Below, piece after piece: positions 3,730 through 21,135 of a stretch of 21,135 nucleotides of DNA. The number at the start of each line of letters is the position of its first letter. Positions within the stretch are counted from its first letter, which is position 1. This stretch comes from a virus. The notes under the pieces are model-generated. The model was not told where the DNA came from, searched no databases, and worked only from the letters and a program-made list of their open reading frames with translations. The stretch spans positions 1 through 21,135 of IMG/VR virus record IMGVR_UViG_3300009551_000129, one strand, 5' to 3'. A program made the translations under genes and the position numbers.

Positions 3730-6066
3730 ATGAGCCTTCCCCGTATCTTCTCTAAGGCAATTCTAGTATTACTCTTGCTAGTACGGCCAGCGATGGATCT
3801 GGCGGCGGAAGGGTATATAGGCCCAGTCATTTCCAGCGTTTCGATCTCACAAATCACTGACACCTCTGCGGTGGTGTTATGGACCACGGACCAAGCCTGT
3901 GATCAACGAATCGAATGGGGCACGACAGTCTCTTATGGTAAGAGTTACCTCTATCCGATTTCTCAGTATCCGCGCTCTACAACGCACTCGGCTCGGTTCG
4001 TCGGCCTTCAACCTTTAACTACTTATCATTATAGAATAAGTAGTACCAACGCCGATCTAGAATCTGTCGCTTCCTCGGACGCAACGTTTACCACGTCGGC
4101 AACTTACATAATTCCAGTGCTGCCACAGTTGACGGTGGATACTTCAATGCCCGACATGACAGGGGCCGTTGAAAAGACGGTCAAGGCGAGTGGCGGGGAT
4201 TACACTACCTTACAGGCAGCGCTTGATTATGCGTCCACACAAACAGGGAAGGTCATCATAACTGTCGATGCGGGCATGGTGTTTACGACCGGAGTAAATC
4301 CACACCTATTTAACGTGAACCGCGCAAACACAAACGGGACTATTGTCCGAAGTTCGGCCTATGCAACTTTGACTGAGGGTGTGCGCGTTACAGCCTCACA
4401 GGCCAACTTGATGTTTAAGCTGGAGACCACGAGCACTAAGGCTGCGCTTTATATACTGAGAAACGCGCATCACGTTCGATTCATTGGGATGGAAGTGGCT
4501 CCGTCTTCTTCAAACACAGCCGCAGTATACGAGTTGGTAGCCCCTGACGATCAGACAGCTACCGGCTTAAGTCAGGGCATTTACGCAGATATCGCCTATC
4601 AGCCCCATCACGTCATCTTCGATCGCTGCTACATCCATGGCACTAGCGCAATCGGAGGGATTGGTCGCGGAGTCTCACTTAACTTTGACTACGGCGCGGT
4701 CATTAACTCCGAACTGAGCAATATCGACAGTGACAACGTTTGGGCTTTAGAGGCGAAGGCAATTGGATTCTGGCAAGTCTCCGGCCCCTTAAAGATCGAT
4801 AACAACTACATTGAGTCGTCCGCAGAATGGATCATGAGCGGCGGGACAACTGCGTGGACTTCTGCTCTGCCTTCGGATGTCACGATCACTAGGAACTATT
4901 TCACCAAGCGAACCAGCTGGAGAAACGGGGGCGTTGGCTGGGATGGCTCCAACCATATCGTCAAGTTTGGCTTAGAGGTGAAGTTCGGGCAGCGTTTTCT
5001 AATAGACAGCAACATATTTGATACTAGTTGGGCCGAGGACGAGAGCGGTGACATGCTGCTCGTTCGGCCTCTGCTTACCTCGCAGTCCCAGTCTCCCACA
5101 GAAACCCGCGACATAACCGTGCAGTGGAACTGGTTCCGCCACATGGCTACCGGGTTCAATTTTTCAGGCGAGGATACCGTTGGATCAGCCGTCGAGAAAA
5201 TGGGTTCACATTTTCTAATTCAACAGAACTTGTTAGAGGACATCAATCGGACCATTTGGGCGGACGGCGGCGGTAGAGGGTGGTTACAAATCTCGGTCCG
5301 GTGGCTGACGTTGAATCACAACACGATTGTTGGTGGCGACATGGGTTCGGCTATGTCTATCAACAGAACTGAGAACAACAGTGAGGGGCTGGTAGTTAAG
5401 AACAACGTTATCACGAATAGCCTGCATGGATTCTCGGGGAACGCCGTTGGCTCTGGCACCGTAGCGTTCACAACCTACGCCCCGACCTACTCCCTGCTGA
5501 GGAACGTGGTTGTCAATCCAGGCGTCTTAATCGGCACTGACGCGACGAATAACGCGGTTCCCGTAAGCAACGCGGCAATAGGATTCGTGAACTTCAATTC
5601 AGGCAATGGAGGAAATTATACACTAAGCGAGTCGAGCCCATATAAGAAGTATTCTGACGATGGATCCGATCCCGGCGTCGATACTACAGTCCTAGCCGCT
5701 AAACTGGCTGGCGTGGCTCCGGGTAAATCCGTTCCTCCACCTGTCAGTACTCCTAGCCCAACGCCAACACCCACACCCGCTCCTAGTCCTGTACCCATTC
5801 CTACACCTTGTACGATGACAGTTGACAACCCTGTTGCGCCTCAGTGGGGCAACGGAAAGATGGTTGTAACGTTTACTGGCATCACTCAAGCTTCAAATGT
5901 GAACGTGGTAAGCACATCAGGACAGGTAACAGTGAGCCCGAGCTCGAGACTGGTGAATGGAACTTCAATGATTGCAGAGTTTCTACTCCAAGCGAAAAAG
6001 AAGTCCAGTAGTGTTATAGTTACCGGACCTTGTGGATCTAAGACTGTGATGGTGACTGTTCAGTGA
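3730..6066 (+). CDS. Secreted-type right-handed beta-helix protein with fibronectin III domain
   Basis: 778 residues. Residues 1-26 look like a Sec signal peptide (basic start, LVLLLLV core, AA before E27). Residues about 31-123 are a fibronectin type III domain with WTTDQ and LTTYHYRI motifs. Residues about 145-660 form a right-handed parallel beta-helix: repeated strands such as HVIFDRCYIHG, IDNNYIES, ITRNYF, LIDSNIFD and LNHNTIVG, resembling pectate-lyase-like surface proteins. A Pro/Thr/Ser linker (669-693) leads to a beta-rich C-terminal domain with two Cys (C694 and one in GPCG). Beta-helices are used by phage tailspikes to bind or cut polysaccharides, but a signal peptide is unusual for a virion protein. 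It may be a host-derived surface protein. ATG 3793 would remove the signal peptide. A weak ribosome site precedes 3730. Confidence 0.75.
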   Translation: MSLPRIFSKAILVLLLLVRPAMDLAAEGYIGPVISSVSISQITDTSAVVLWTTDQACDQRIEWGTTVSYGKSYLYPISQYPRSTTHSARFVGLQPLTTYHYRISSTNADLESVASSDATFTTSATYIIPVLPQLTVDTSMPDMTGAVEKTVKASGGDYTTLQAALDYASTQTGKVIITVDAGMVFTTGVNPHLFNVNRANTNGTIVRSSAYATLTEGVRVTASQANLMFKLETTSTKAALYILRNAHHVRFIGMEVAPSSSNTAAVYELVAPDDQTATGLSQGIYADIAYQPHHVIFDRCYIHGTSAIGGIGRGVSLNFDYGAVINSELSNIDSDNVWALEAKAIGFWQVSGPLKIDNNYIESSAEWIMSGGTTAWTSALPSDVTITRNYFTKRTSWRNGGVGWDGSNHIVKFGLEVKFGQRFLIDSNIFDTSWAEDESGDMLLVRPLLTSQSQSPTETRDITVQWNWFRHMATGFNFSGEDTVGSAVEKMGSHFLIQQNLLEDINRTIWADGGGRGWLQISVRWLTLNHNTIVGGDMGSAMSINRTENNSEGLVVKNNVITNSLHGFSGNAVGSGTVAFTTYAPTYSLLRNVVVNPGVLIGTDATNNAVPVSNAAIGFVNFNSGNGGNYTLSESSPYKKYSDDGSDPGVDTTVLAAKLAGVAPGKSVPPPVSTPSPTPTPTPAPSPVPIPTPCTMTVDNPVAPQWGNGKMVVTFTGITQASNVNVVSTSGQVTVSPSSRLVNGTSMIAEFLLQAKKKSSSVIVTGPCGSKTVMVTVQ

Positions 6067-6251
6067 ACGTGGAATTTGAAATTGACCGACTCAACCGTCA
6101 AGTCGAGAGCCTGAAACGTGAACTGAGGCAAAAGAGCAAGCTTTGGGACACGGTCTGCTCTGCACCTTGGCAAAGACTTTGGTGGTTCCTGCAAGGGTTT
6201 AGATTGTGGCGCGTTGGTCGCTGGTATGGGAAGACAGACGATTTGAAGTGA
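6063..6251 (+). CDS. Small helical protein, Trp-rich C-terminus
   Basis: 62 residues starting at GTG 6063, whose last two bases overlap the TGA of the beta-helix gene, so it is translationally coupled to it. Residues 1-28 are a short amphipathic coiled coil (EIDRLNRQVESLKRELRQK). The second half is rich in Trp and Arg (PWQRLWWFLQGFRLWRVGRWYG), which could lie in the membrane interface. No family is recognised. The coupling suggests it is a partner of the beta-helix protein, perhaps for membrane docking, but that is inference. Confidence 0.6.
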   Translation: MNVEFEIDRLNRQVESLKRELRQKSKLWDTVCSAPWQRLWWFLQGFRLWRVGRWYGKTDDLK

Positions 6252-6258
6252 GGTGGTT

Positions 6259-6681
6259 ATGCCAATTACAAGCAACGAAGATTTTGTGTTGACCTACGAC
6301 GCTGACTCTCAAGTTGCGTCGACACGTGTGTTCTCTCATGACGCACCAACCCAACTAGAATTTGGTGGACAATGTCTGATTATTGAGATTGTCCGCGGTG
6401 TGTTGGCTGACGGCATCTCGGCAGACGATTGGAATAACACCGGGCAGGGATTCAGGTTCGCAGACCAAGCCGCTTGGGACGAATGGTTTTTAGGTATACG
6501 CAACGCCGCTCAGGAACGGGCTGCACTGAACGTGGCATCTCACGTAAACGAATTAACCGAGGCACAGTTGGGCCAAGCGGCAAATCTTGCGGCTAACTTC
6601 TGTGAGCGCGGCTATGTAGGTGTTATGGCGGGAACGCAGCAAGCCGACAAGATCACGTTTACGAGGCTAGGGGGAATCTAG
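6259..6681 (+). CDS. Hypothetical structural-region protein, 140 residues
   Basis: The start is ATG 6259, with TGAGGT at 6249-6254 just upstream overlapping the stop of the previous gene; a GTG at 6253 lies within that ribosome site. The N-terminal half is beta-rich and acidic, the C-terminal half mostly helical. No membrane segment, signal or catalytic motif is visible. I do not recognise a family. Its place between the beta-helix gene and the fibre-type genes suggests a virion or adsorption-module component. The following gene begins 3 bases after its stop, at a probable ATC codon. Confidence 0.65.
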   Translation: MPITSNEDFVLTYDADSQVASTRVFSHDAPTQLEFGGQCLIIEIVRGVLADGISADDWNNTGQGFRFADQAAWDEWFLGIRNAAQERAALNVASHVNELTEAQLGQAANLAANFCERGYVGVMAGTQQADKITFTRLGGI

Positions 6682-6683
6682 CC

Positions 6684-7325
6684 ATCGCTTCTCTGCTCTA
6701 TTTAAGGAATTCCCAACTCCACGGTATAAGCGGGACCGGAGACGGAATTCTGTACGACATGCTGAAGGACGCGCCCGGATCTTCAGCCGATACCGTAGTG
6801 ACCAATACTGTAGCAAGTGGCACTGAGATTCAAGCGACAAAGACTGCTGGTGGATCCACTGTTGCGTGGATCAGCGGCCGCGTCCCTGCGGGCGGCTTCA
6901 CGCTCACAGCGGTGGATATTTCGCTGTGGCAAGTCGAGTCAAACATGAATGCCAACATCGGAGGGCGGTTTAGATTATTCAAACGCACGGCGGCCGGGAC
7001 AATTACAGAGTTGGGGGGCGGGCCGTTTGACGATGGATCCGAAATGGGAACCTCCAACACGGAGGACACATGGACTGGCAACCCTACCGATACAGCATTC
7101 TCCGAAGATGATCGGATCATCCTTCGTTACTATTTAACTAACATTTTAACTATGGGCGGGAGTTTTACAGGAACCATGACTTTCAATGCTGCCGCAGGGG
7201 CGACTGGCGATTCGTTTCTTAATCTGGCGGAAACCGTAGCGTTCAAATCTGATGGAGGTCTGTTTCCATTCTTCCAAGATAATACGCTTACAGGGGGACT
7301 GCAATCGGGCGGATTTGGAGATTAA
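6684..7325 (+). CDS. Beta-rich virion protein with a probable ATC start
   Basis: 213 residues if read from ATC 6684 (MASLLYLRNSQLHGISGTGD). The frame opens after a TGA at 6603 and contains no ATG, GTG or TTG before 6759, yet the residues before 6759 look like genuine protein and resemble the N-terminus of similar phage proteins. AGGGGG at 6669-6674 sits nine bases before the ATC. Starting at ATG 6759 would give 188 residues and lose this part. The body is Gly/Thr/Ser-rich with alternating strands (VAWISGRVPAGGFTLT, NANIGGRFRLFKRT), typical of a jelly-roll or Ig-like phage surface protein. It is likely a decoration, baseplate or fibre component; the exact role is unknown. Confidence 0.7.
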   Translation: MASLLYLRNSQLHGISGTGDGILYDMLKDAPGSSADTVVTNTVASGTEIQATKTAGGSTVAWISGRVPAGGFTLTAVDISLWQVESNMNANIGGRFRLFKRTAAGTITELGGGPFDDGSEMGTSNTEDTWTGNPTDTAFSEDDRIILRYYLTNILTMGGSFTGTMTFNAAAGATGDSFLNLAETVAFKSDGGLFPFFQDNTLTGGLQSGGFGD

Positions 7326-8291: not shown

Positions 8292-10364
8292 ATGGCTCTA
8301 TTTGACGGATGCGTAGCGGCGTGGAAACTCTCGGATCTCACGGATGCGACGGGTCGTGGCAATACACTCACAAACAATAATTCAGTAACTTTCGTTGCAG
8401 GCAAGATCGGCAATGCCGCTTCCCTCGCAACCGCTTCTAGTAAATATCTTTCTAAGGCCAGCAGTGCCGATGTAAATCCTGGAAACAGCGAGTGGTCTAT
8501 AGGTTTTTGGTACAAGCCTGCCAGCACTACAGCAGAACAAATCCTTATTGGTTTACAGGACGACGCAAGCGGAGGCGGCTATGTAGTCACATCTGCGGCG
8601 GGAGGGAATAGCCTTGTTTTCAATCCTAAAAATGCAGCAGGCTCGAATTCAGCCAGCGTCACGGTCAACCCCTCATTCTCCAACGGCACTTTCTATTGCA
8701 TTGTGGTCCGCCACAGCCCGGCTGACGGCCTTGTCTATATCAACGTCAACGACACGGCTTTTTCAGCTTCAAATTCCATTGATAACGGCCCTACGGCGGG
8801 CAGTACGGCTGAGTTTAGAATAGGGGCACGGGCGTATCCGGGATTTCAGGAATACACGGATGGGCTCATTGACGCGGTTCACATCTGGTCACGGAAGATA
8901 AGCAATGCTGAGGTAACGGAGTTCTACAACTCCGGCAACGGAGTGGAATTCACTGCGGCGGTGACTGGTGCTGGTCCTGCTTTATTCCGCGGCCGCAACA
9001 CTCCATTCTTTGATGATGATCAAGTAAATAGATTTGAGTTCTGGCCAGCGCGAACAGAGGTTCCTACATTAAACGTTTCGGGTACACTAGCTCCAGCGGG
9101 GTCGTTAGCCAGAGCAGTTACACGCGCTCTAGCTGCCAATGAGACTCCTGTTGGGGTTCCTTTGAGGCTTAACTCTAAGCCGTTGAGCGCGGCTGAGACT
9201 CCCTCGGGCGGTCTAATTCGCCAATCGCAAAAGTCGTTTTCTGGATCTCAGGCGGGGTCAGCAGTCGTAATCAAATCAGTCTCAAAATCACCGAGCGGAT
9301 CAATTGTCCCGACTGGTGTAAACCTAAAAACCGCAAATAAGACTTCCAGCGGATCTCTCGCACCATCAGGGACTAAGGTCCTCGCGTTTACGAAGCTGCT
9401 CATAGGTTCATTGGTTCCAAGCGGTTTAGTGAGCAAGATTGACTCAAAGAGTCCGGTAGGCCAACTGACTCCTTCATCTCTGATAACCCGATCCACGCAA
9501 GCATCGAAATCAGGCTCTCTCATTCCGTCTGGCTTGCTCGGTGCTCTAAAGCTGACGCTGCAATCATTGGCGGGCTCGCTGACTCCGTCTGGCACTATTC
9601 GTCAACTTTTCAGTCTTTCACCCTCTGCTCAAACTACGCCATCGTCGGTTGTCGCAAAGATTGTTACGAGAGTTCTATCCGCAGCGATCGTTGCTACCGG
9701 AGCCCTGACTACGCTCAAGGCCATCCTGCAATCATTGGCAGGGCTTCTCAATACATCCAGTGCCGTGACTCAAAGTGTTGGCAAGAATCCATCCAGCCAA
9801 GTGCTTCCAACATCATCGGTGAGTAAAGCAACTTTGCGAACCCTCTCAGCAACGGTGACTCCCACAGGATTATTAACAGCGGTTAGATCGTTTCTATTAC
9901 ATCTTACTGGCTCAAGTACTCCCTCAGCCCTAAGGGCAAAACAGTCAATCAAATCTGTCAGTTCGTCTCAAACTGCGGCGGGAGAAGCGGCTAATACAAC
10001 ATCGAAGGCGCTCACTGGAGCGTCCACACTTTCAGGGATCGTATTCACCGCAAGACAAGTATTACTTGCGCTTGAATCGATAGTGGTTCCCCTCGGTTCA
10101 GTGGCTAGAAACATCAATCTATTCGTTGCTGGAGAGTCTGGCCCATTTGGTTCTGTCAGTAAATTTGTATCCCGTCTATTGAGTGCTGTGCTATCTTTAG
10201 GCGGCTCGCTGGTCAACCTTCTACTTAATCCGCAAGTAAAACTAGACGTAGTGAGCGCGGATTTTGTAGTTACACAACTAGTCGCGAGTGACTTTGCGGT
10301 AACACGGCTAGAGGTAAGAGACGCGACAGTAAATTCTCTCTCCGGTGGAGACAGCGCTTTGTGA
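8292..10364 (+). CDS. LamG-type fibre protein with about twenty 18-20-residue repeats
   Basis: 690 residues from ATG 8292. Residues 1-225 are a concanavalin A/LamG-like jelly roll (VAAWKLSDLTDATGRGNTLT, WSIGFWYKPAS, GLIDAVHIWSRKISNAEV), a fold that commonly binds glycans. Residues about 260-646 are a tandem array of roughly 21 degenerate units on the pattern S-x-G-S-L-x-P-S-G-x-L followed by 8-9 residues. Residues 650-685 hold a different, ten-residue repeat (VSADFVVTQL / VASDFAVTRL / VRDATVNSL). The only Met is the initiator. The array should form a long, regular beta fibre, with the LamG domain at one end. It is probably a receptor-binding or virion side fibre. It is coupled by GTGA overlap to the next gene. 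Confidence 0.75.
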   Translation: MALFDGCVAAWKLSDLTDATGRGNTLTNNNSVTFVAGKIGNAASLATASSKYLSKASSADVNPGNSEWSIGFWYKPASTTAEQILIGLQDDASGGGYVVTSAAGGNSLVFNPKNAAGSNSASVTVNPSFSNGTFYCIVVRHSPADGLVYINVNDTAFSASNSIDNGPTAGSTAEFRIGARAYPGFQEYTDGLIDAVHIWSRKISNAEVTEFYNSGNGVEFTAAVTGAGPALFRGRNTPFFDDDQVNRFEFWPARTEVPTLNVSGTLAPAGSLARAVTRALAANETPVGVPLRLNSKPLSAAETPSGGLIRQSQKSFSGSQAGSAVVIKSVSKSPSGSIVPTGVNLKTANKTSSGSLAPSGTKVLAFTKLLIGSLVPSGLVSKIDSKSPVGQLTPSSLITRSTQASKSGSLIPSGLLGALKLTLQSLAGSLTPSGTIRQLFSLSPSAQTTPSSVVAKIVTRVLSAAIVATGALTTLKAILQSLAGLLNTSSAVTQSVGKNPSSQVLPTSSVSKATLRTLSATVTPTGLLTAVRSFLLHLTGSSTPSALRAKQSIKSVSSSQTAAGEAANTTSKALTGASTLSGIVFTARQVLLALESIVVPLGSVARNINLFVAGESGPFGSVSKFVSRLLSAVLSLGGSLVNLLLNPQVKLDVVSADFVVTQLVASDFAVTRLEVRDATVNSLSGGDSAL
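9069..10229 (+). repeat. Coding tandem repeat, period about 54-60 bases
   Basis: Encodes about 21 units of 18-20 residues in the fibre gene. The best-conserved units read SGSLAPSG, GSLVPSG, SGSLIPSG and AGSLTPSG; outer units are more diverged. One near-identical DNA stretch recurs at 9562 and 9728 (CTGCAATCATTGGC), suggesting recent duplication or recombination within the array. Confidence 0.75.
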
Positions 10365-19534: not shown

Positions 19535-20184
19535 TGCCAGATGATCCCGGTCAAGGAGCCGATCCGACCCAGGCATTTCAGAATCGTCTGAACAAACTGA
19601 ATGGCGATGCAATGCTATTCGCTACTCAACTGTTTGATGAGAACTACCGTCTCAGGGAAGACAAAAGAACGCTTGGCGCTCAACTCGAAGAATTGAAAAC
19701 CAAGGCTCCGGCAGAGGGTGCATTGGTCCTCGTCGGCGATGAGGCTAAGGCTTACGAAGCTTATAAGGCGCTCGGAACTCCAAAGGAACTGAAGGACCGC
19801 ATTGATGCCTATCCAACACTCGAAAATGAAAACAAGGGATTGAAGCTTCGAGACTCGCTGCGCGAGGTCGCAGATGTTGGGTTTGGCGGCAGTAAGTTGA
19901 AGTTTGGGATACTTGAAGATCGAGTGAAAGCTGCCGGTGGAAACCTTCAGTTTGTGATCAAGGAAGAGGGTCGAGATAAGCGCAAGGTCGCTTACGTGAA
20001 GGACGGAGACAAGGAAACTTCGTTAGAACAGTACGCCGAAAAGAATTGGGCGGACTACATGCCATCTCTCAAGGCAGAGCAGGCCAAACGGACAGGCTCA
20101 GCTAATGGCGGAGAGGGCAATGGACAGCCCGCAAAGTTCGATATGAACACGATGATCCGTCAGCAGGCTGGCTACCCTTCCTAA
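19534..20184 (+). CDS. Scaffold-like head assembly protein
   Basis: 216 residues from ATG 19534, with AAGGAG at 19521-19526 (GTG 19531 is too close to that site). An N-terminal helical stretch holds a coiled coil (NRLNKLNGDAMLFATQLFDE ... LREDKRTLGAQLEELKTK). The middle is mixed (LVLVGDEAKAYEAYKALGTP), with a second charged helical part and a Gly/Asn-rich linker near the C-terminus (SANGGEGNGQPAKF). Position directly before the major capsid gene, coiled coil, charge and length all fit a phage scaffolding protein, which templates procapsid assembly and then leaves. A catalytic protease motif is not evident. The TAA is followed at once by the ribosome site of the capsid gene. Confidence 0.7.
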   Translation: MPDDPGQGADPTQAFQNRLNKLNGDAMLFATQLFDENYRLREDKRTLGAQLEELKTKAPAEGALVLVGDEAKAYEAYKALGTPKELKDRIDAYPTLENENKGLKLRDSLREVADVGFGGSKLKFGILEDRVKAAGGNLQFVIKEEGRDKRKVAYVKDGDKETSLEQYAEKNWADYMPSLKAEQAKRTGSANGGEGNGQPAKFDMNTMIRQQAGYPS

Positions 20185-20190
20185 AGGAGG
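20183..20190 (+). promoter_or_regulatory. Strong Shine-Dalgarno sequence of the capsid gene
   Basis: AAAGGAGG, the longest match to the anti-Shine-Dalgarno sequence I see in the window, ends six bases before the ATC at 20197. Its spacing fixes the capsid start at that codon, since the next in-frame ATG (20308) is 117 bases away. Confidence 0.8.
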
Positions 20191-20196
20191 TGTGCC

Positions 20197-21135
20197 ATCG
20201 CTTACGACAATATTATATCTAGAACTGACGCACAGGCTCTCATCCCTGAAGACGTTGCGGCAGAGATAATCCAAAACACAATCAAACAGTCCGCGGCCCT
20301 TACGCTGATGCGGCGCGCGACAATGGCGACGAATCAGCAACGTATGCCGGTCCTGTCTGCGCTCCCGATCGCCTACTTCGTCAATGGCGATACCGGACTC
20401 AAACAGACAACTGAAGTCGCGTGGGGCAACAAGTTTCTCAACGCAGAAGAGATTGCCTGTATCGTCCCTATCCCTGAAGCGGTGTTGGAAGATGCGAGCT
20501 TTGATGTGTGGGGGGAAATTCGACCTAAGCTGGAAGAGGCAGTAGGCCGCACGTTGGACGCAGCGATATTCTTTGGCACTAACAAGCCTTCAAGCTGGCC
20601 AACTGACATCGCGGCATCGGCTGTCTCTGCTGGTAACGTCATTGCTCGTGGTACAGCGAACGCCGCAGCCGGTGGAATCGCTACTGACATCTCCGACACT
20701 ATGGCGACCGTCGAGGCGGATGGTTTTGACGTGAACGGATTTGTTACCTCCCGATCCTATCGTCGGTTTCTCCGCAATGCTCGTGACACTACGGGTCAGA
20801 AGCTTCTTGACATCGCATTGAACACAATCGAAGGTGAGCAGGTAGTCTATGCGCTTAATGGTCTATGGCCGACAGGCGCGAGTGCGGCTGAATTGTTTAC
20901 CGGAGACTGGATGCAATTCGTCCTTGCTGTTCGACGCGACATGACCTACAAACTGCTCGATCAGGCGGTGATTCAGGACAACACCGGAGCCATCGTCTAT
21001 AACCTAGCCCAACAGGATATGGTTGCGATGCGGTTGACGTTCCGCGCAGCGTGGCAAGTCGCAAATCCGATCAGTTATGACAATCAAGTCGAAGCCAACA
21101 GATATCCAGTTGGCGTACTTCGTTCGCCTGCCTAA
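20197..21135 (+). CDS. Major capsid protein (HK97 fold), ATC start codon
   Basis: 312 residues when read from ATC 20197 (MAYDNIISRTDAQALIPEDV). That beginning matches the N-terminus of HK97-type capsid proteins as I know it. In frame a TAA lies at 20182, and no ATG, GTG or TTG occurs until ATG 20308, which would delete 37 conserved residues. AAAGGAGG sits six bases before the ATC. The rest fits the fold: an N-arm, MPVLSALPIAYFVNGDTG and EVAWGNKFLNAEEIACIVPI (E-loop and sheet), the long helix FDVWGEIRPKLEEAVGRTLD, and a C-terminal domain ending DMVAMRLTFRAAWQVANP. This protein forms the icosahedral shell. Its stop is the last base of the window. Confidence 0.92.
   Translation: MAYDNIISRTDAQALIPEDVAAEIIQNTIKQSAALTLMRRATMATNQQRMPVLSALPIAYFVNGDTGLKQTTEVAWGNKFLNAEEIACIVPIPEAVLEDASFDVWGEIRPKLEEAVGRTLDAAIFFGTNKPSSWPTDIAASAVSAGNVIARGTANAAAGGIATDISDTMATVEADGFDVNGFVTSRSYRRFLRNARDTTGQKLLDIALNTIEGEQVVYALNGLWPTGASAAELFTGDWMQFVLAVRRDMTYKLLDQAVIQDNTGAIVYNLAQQDMVAMRLTFRAAWQVANPISYDNQVEANRYPVGVLRSPA

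Follow-up and report, generated by a model that had tools for sequence, protein, structure and literature searches.

A phage gene for a predicted jelly-roll protein very probably starts at ATC: one of two seemingly separate start-codon losses in a 21-kb fragment

Results

The window analysed here, a phage fragment of 21,135 bases, carries two genes that very probably start at ATC, and the features described at both sites lie on the + strand. One is a predicted structural/adhesin-like gene (6684..7325, 213 codons plus stop) that begins with ATC (6684..6686) at a start column shared by its homologues. The other is the major capsid gene of HK97 type (Pfam Phage_capsid; 20197..21135), which runs to the end of the window. 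The open frame of the 6684 gene extends from 6606, just after the TGA at 6603-6605, to the TAA at 7323-7325, and its earliest ATG, GTG or TTG is the ATG at 6759, exactly as the initial annotation had described. The Shine-Dalgarno sequence AGGGGG (6669..6674), identified by sequence and duplex energy, pairs with the 16S tail at -9.3 kcal/mol and stands nine bases ahead of the ATC, a spacing that was also read correctly at the outset. This site and that of the capsid gene rank among the strongest in the window. The 6684 gene thus combines an AUH codon at a conserved start position, no canonical in-frame alternative and a Shine-Dalgarno sequence at working distance. A perfect 6-bp inverted repeat, GGCTAG ... 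CTAGCC (6666..6683), the same in relatives, lies directly 5' of the ATC and encloses both the Shine-Dalgarno sequence and the stop codon of the upstream gene. G6663 can pair with the third base of the start codon in both alleles seen at this site (C or T), and could not do so with ATG.

Two small genes precede the 6684 gene in this lineage. The nearer one, of about 140 amino acids (the 142-aa gene, 6259..6681), belongs to an open reading frame listed from GTG 6253 (6253-6681), and a strong Shine-Dalgarno sequence favours ATG 6259; its stop codon TAG (6679-6681) ends two bases 5' of the ATC. A homology search with its product found the same two contigs as the 6684 protein (L001 and L002, from other metagenomes) and is consistent with a gene restricted to this lineage. 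It is preceded by a small 'WRVGRWY' gene (6063..6251), look-alikes of which directly abut the 6684-type gene elsewhere: a small gene with GRWY or GVWY at or close to its end touches or overlaps the 6684-type gene, stop to start, in about ten other phages, where the two form a coupled pair, whereas in the window and in L001 the 142-aa gene sits between them. The pairing of a small 'SPLWKR..QG..GRWY' protein with a jelly-roll protein, here at 6063-7325, recurs in many phage contigs of the set.

Initial searches for homologues of the 6684 protein returned either these two near-identical contigs or no match; a degenerate DNA pattern built on the GPFDDGxE motif opened up a wider family, which a profile search extended. 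At the column of ATC 6684, the 16 distinct homologues with an intact 5' end (about 30-59% identity) have ATG in 13 cases, GTG in two and TTG in one, and none of the 16 starts at Met 6759. Their N-termini read M-A-T-x-L-[Y/F]-L-R, with M/V/L-A/S/P-T as the first three residues, and the window has I-A-S-L-L-Y-L-R. The protein shares with this grouping, which we defined here as the MATxLYLR jelly-roll phage protein family, the A/S-[ST]-x-L-[YF]-L-R motif, GPFDDGxE and co-linear homology; in two homologue alignments L5, L7 and R8 are among the invariant residues, and the start codon is the sole feature in which it departs from the family. Translation of the gene therefore very probably starts at ATC 6684, and this assignment is as firm as homology allows. 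The proposal that the ATC, and not Met 6759, is the start is thus upheld by the alignment of homologues, which begin at exactly that residue. The 25 residues ahead of 6759, likewise proposed to be genuine protein, contain the conserved A..L.LR motif and strand 1 of the predicted fold.

The closest relatives carry a different allele. L001 and L002, two near-identical contigs, have ATT where the window has ATC; they agree at the start site and represent one close lineage. Between the window and L001 there are three substitutions in 6606-6683, all at third positions of the upstream frame, and three in 6684-6758, all at third positions of the 6684 frame and synonymous, so that the pattern changes frame at 6684. 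In addition, a C-to-T change at 6648 in the relatives creates TAA in the 6684 frame, and their start must therefore lie 3' of 6648, where ATT is the only plausible start in frame; a start farther upstream in this frame is ruled out in these relatives by the same stop codon. A search for a copy of the 6684 gene in sister phages with near-identical capsids found none.

AlphaFold2 models the 6684 protein as a beta sandwich (mean pLDDT 84.6), in which residues 1-190 form a predicted jelly roll followed by a low-confidence tail, and strand 1 comprises residues 3-7 (pLDDT block 88). Structure matches in PDB cover residues 1-184 of the model, the best being to the C-terminal jelly rolls of CocE/X-Pro peptidases (Z 13.8, rmsd 2.8, 160 aligned), and the viral matches are mostly fibre-like proteins of Caudovirales, with collagen-repeat and chaperone domains. 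The predicted fold is the same as in the CocE/X-Pro dipeptidyl-peptidase C-terminal domain and in phage fibre-like domains; with these domains, however, the product has the fold alone in common, at about 10-14% identity, and it lacks a catalytic domain. The model suggests a phage jelly-roll structural/adhesin-like protein.

At the capsid gene, the product IAYDNIISRTDAQALIPEDV read from ATC 20197 aligns residue for residue with MAYDNIISRTDAQALIPEDV of relatives, and the conserved N-terminus MAYDNIISRTD falls at this ATC. Among 134 distinct capsid 5' regions read, 125 other capsids have a canonical codon near the column (ATG 78, GTG 42, TTG 5). The Shine-Dalgarno sequence AAAGGAGGTG (20183..20192) is the strongest in the window, at -15.5 kcal/mol, and translation of the capsid very probably starts at ATC 20197. 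ATC occupies the capsid start column in two lineages, that of the window, which includes L005, and the distant L048 (about 60% identity). The L048 capsid (L048:1665-1740) has an apparent ATC start, preceded at a distance of nine bases by a Shine-Dalgarno sequence of -9.9 kcal/mol; a start at the in-frame GTG (1674) that lies 33 bases upstream of the ATC, and whose Shine-Dalgarno sequence is weaker, would add 11 residues. Six further capsids (L216, L219, L227, L229, L230 and L232) lack a canonical start codon around this column; their N-termini appear to be extended, in place of an AUH start. Another one, L237, is cut by the end of its contig.

The ten bases GCCATCGCTT are indeed, as first observed, identical at the two starts (6681-6690 and 20194-20203). 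Two copies of the 9-mer GCCATCGCT are present in the window, where 0.26 would be expected, and 2 of 100 shuffles reach that number of copies. However, the shared 10-mer is not conserved, since relatives carry GCCATTGCTT at the 6684 site and GGCTAGATGGCC at the capsid; the comparison indicates that what is conserved is the start position and not the ATC context.

Discussion

Taken together, these observations are best explained, with a probability of about 0.8, by a jelly-roll structural/adhesin-like gene that starts at AUC 6684 by means of initiator fMet-tRNA, a strong Shine-Dalgarno sequence and re-initiation, having lost its old start at a rebuilt junction, the loss at the capsid gene being a separate event. 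Most likely, the strong Shine-Dalgarno sequence places the ordinary fMet-tRNA of the host on AUC, which this tRNA would read with a third-position mismatch, and ribosomes that terminate on the upstream gene, two bases before the AUC, would assist via re-initiation. By analogy with known AUH starts, a strong Shine-Dalgarno sequence and adjacent termination could make such a mismatch tolerable. The origin of the start can be suggested from gene order: since the GRWY gene directly abuts the 6684-type gene elsewhere and the 142-aa gene lies between them here, the ancestral ATG or GTG was probably lost when the upstream gene was inserted and the junction rebuilt. In the simplest history, the insertion would have replaced the old junction together with its ATG, the new junction would provide both AGGGGG and a stop codon two bases ahead of AUC or AUU, and one or the other of these codons would have been retained in the lineage ever since. 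The capsid ATC 20197 would be a separate, lineage-specific loss of the start codon, offset by a near-perfect Shine-Dalgarno sequence.

The least probable of the other explanations is a downstream start, at Met 6759 or at ATT 6747, with the preceding 25 residues untranslated: although 6759 is the first canonical start, no homologue begins there, the A..L.LR motif ahead of it is conserved, strand 1 of the predicted fold would be deleted, and its Shine-Dalgarno sequence is weak (-3.5). Also very improbable is that the ATC stands in place of ATG through an error of sequencing or assembly. The data are metagenomic, and the capsid ATC of the window comes from one lineage, yet both other contigs of the relatives show ATT, not ATG, at 6684, and L005, a contig from another dataset, is identical to the window over a 1152-bp overlap that includes the capsid ATC. 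No start codon would be needed if a -1 ribosomal frameshift near A-GGG-GGA-ATC-TAG joined the 142-aa gene to the 6684 gene, since their reading frames overlap in the -1 direction, with the stop adjoining the ATC; however, the zero frame reads CTA GGG GGA ATC TAG, in which A-GGG-GGA lacks the first identical base of an X-XXY-YYZ heptamer, the homologues are genes in their own right, each starting at the residue aligned with 6684, and a different gene precedes them in other phages, so that we consider frameshifting highly improbable. Less remote, though unlikely, is an adaptive role of a weak AUY start, which would limit the protein to a level that is low, coupled upstream or sensitive to IF3, perhaps together with the hairpin before the start. 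The retention of both AUC and AUU in the lineage, the span of the hairpin over the Shine-Dalgarno sequence, the upstream stop and the start, and the precedents of infC and sigR are all consistent with it. Against it, the folding energy of the hairpin is not beyond chance when compared with shuffled sequences (z -0.66 and 0.05), the relatives, being identical across the hairpin, offer no covariation in its support, and the strong Shine-Dalgarno sequence argues for rescue over low expression.

The initial annotation had gone further and proposed that this phage uses ATC systematically; a factor from the host or the phage that loosens the choice of start codon would be one way to achieve this. 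The occurrence of two ATC starts within a 21-kb fragment, each on a structural gene that has a strong Shine-Dalgarno sequence, and the ATC of the further capsid lineage L048 agree with this proposal, but other evidence speaks against it, and we regard it as very unlikely. The capsid of a sister phage (L002/G001, 65.4 kb), 99% identical to that of the window in amino acids and 93% in nucleotides, nevertheless starts with ATG, and the 6684 homologue of the same phage starts with ATT, not ATC. This ATT was the single convincing case in a scan of the 65-kb sister contig for AUH starts. Among about 3,800 open frames from the related contigs analysed, ATC codons preceded by a Shine-Dalgarno sequence upstream of the first canonical start were not enriched (28 against 26.9 expected, ratio 1.04), in a noisy test dominated by spurious frames. 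Neither the window nor the sister contig yielded a tRNA gene, and four related phage records yielded no IF3 domain. If the start code were relaxed or reassigned phage-wide, the codon should stand at the conserved start of numerous genes; in the window it does so in two, and the remaining likely genes begin with ATG, GTG or TTG. Finally, the Ala that follows both ATC codons, which had been taken as a signature, is the family norm (MAT..., MAY...) with any start codon. A somewhat broader variant, still improbable, is that this phage group repeatedly tolerates or selects AUC and AUU as starts of late structural genes, that of the major capsid among them, through a host factor or an unrecognised phage factor relaxing start discrimination, the capsids of the window and of L048 having reached ATC independently. 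Instead of phage-wide use of AUC, the two starts look like two separate start-codon losses supported by strong ribosome-binding sites.

Rare starts of this kind have been described in several systems. The infC gene, encoding IF3, starts with AUU in E. coli and with AUC in Streptomyces, under IF3 control (PMC5472188). Like the 6684 gene, it is a conserved gene with an AUH start, in Streptomyces with the same codon; however, its weak start serves autoregulation of IF3, and no such loop is evident for a phage structural protein. Streptomyces sigR starts with GTC after AGGAGGTG (PMC5472188) and similarly combines a strong Shine-Dalgarno sequence with a rare start codon overlooked by standard start rules, but it differs in its codon, in its regulation by IF3 and in an N-terminus proven experimentally. 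Among phages, orf28 of Streptococcus thermophilus phage TP-J34 was predicted to start at AUU, and its authors resequenced the site to exclude an error (PMC3952083). This gene too belongs to a phage and is assigned an Ile codon as its start, but it is a different gene, its codon is AUU and its start was predicted, whereas the start column of the 6684 gene is set by many homologues. In the literature searched for phage AUC/ATC starts, we found this AUU case and general work only. The 6684 gene is thus a clear, well-supported new example of a class of rare start codons already known, and few AUH starts are fixed this cleanly through homology.

Most gene callers accept only ATG, GTG and TTG, and both genes would therefore be truncated in automatic annotation, the 6684 gene by 25 residues and the capsid gene by 37. 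Of the two, the capsid gene with its AUC start is the greater surprise: AUC initiates poorly in E. coli, and such a start sits oddly with a capsid required in large amounts. It would be a useful test of the rescue of a poor start by a strong Shine-Dalgarno sequence or by coupling in a highly expressed gene. As for the surroundings of the 6684 gene, a large 778-aa protein, a candidate beta-helix, is encoded at 3730-6066, and 8292-10364 encodes a protein of 690 aa that carries a LamG-like domain at its N-terminus (Pfam Laminin_G_3) and has a long, repetitive C-terminal part rich in Ser and Leu; both belong to the same cluster, which is likely to be an appendage cluster.
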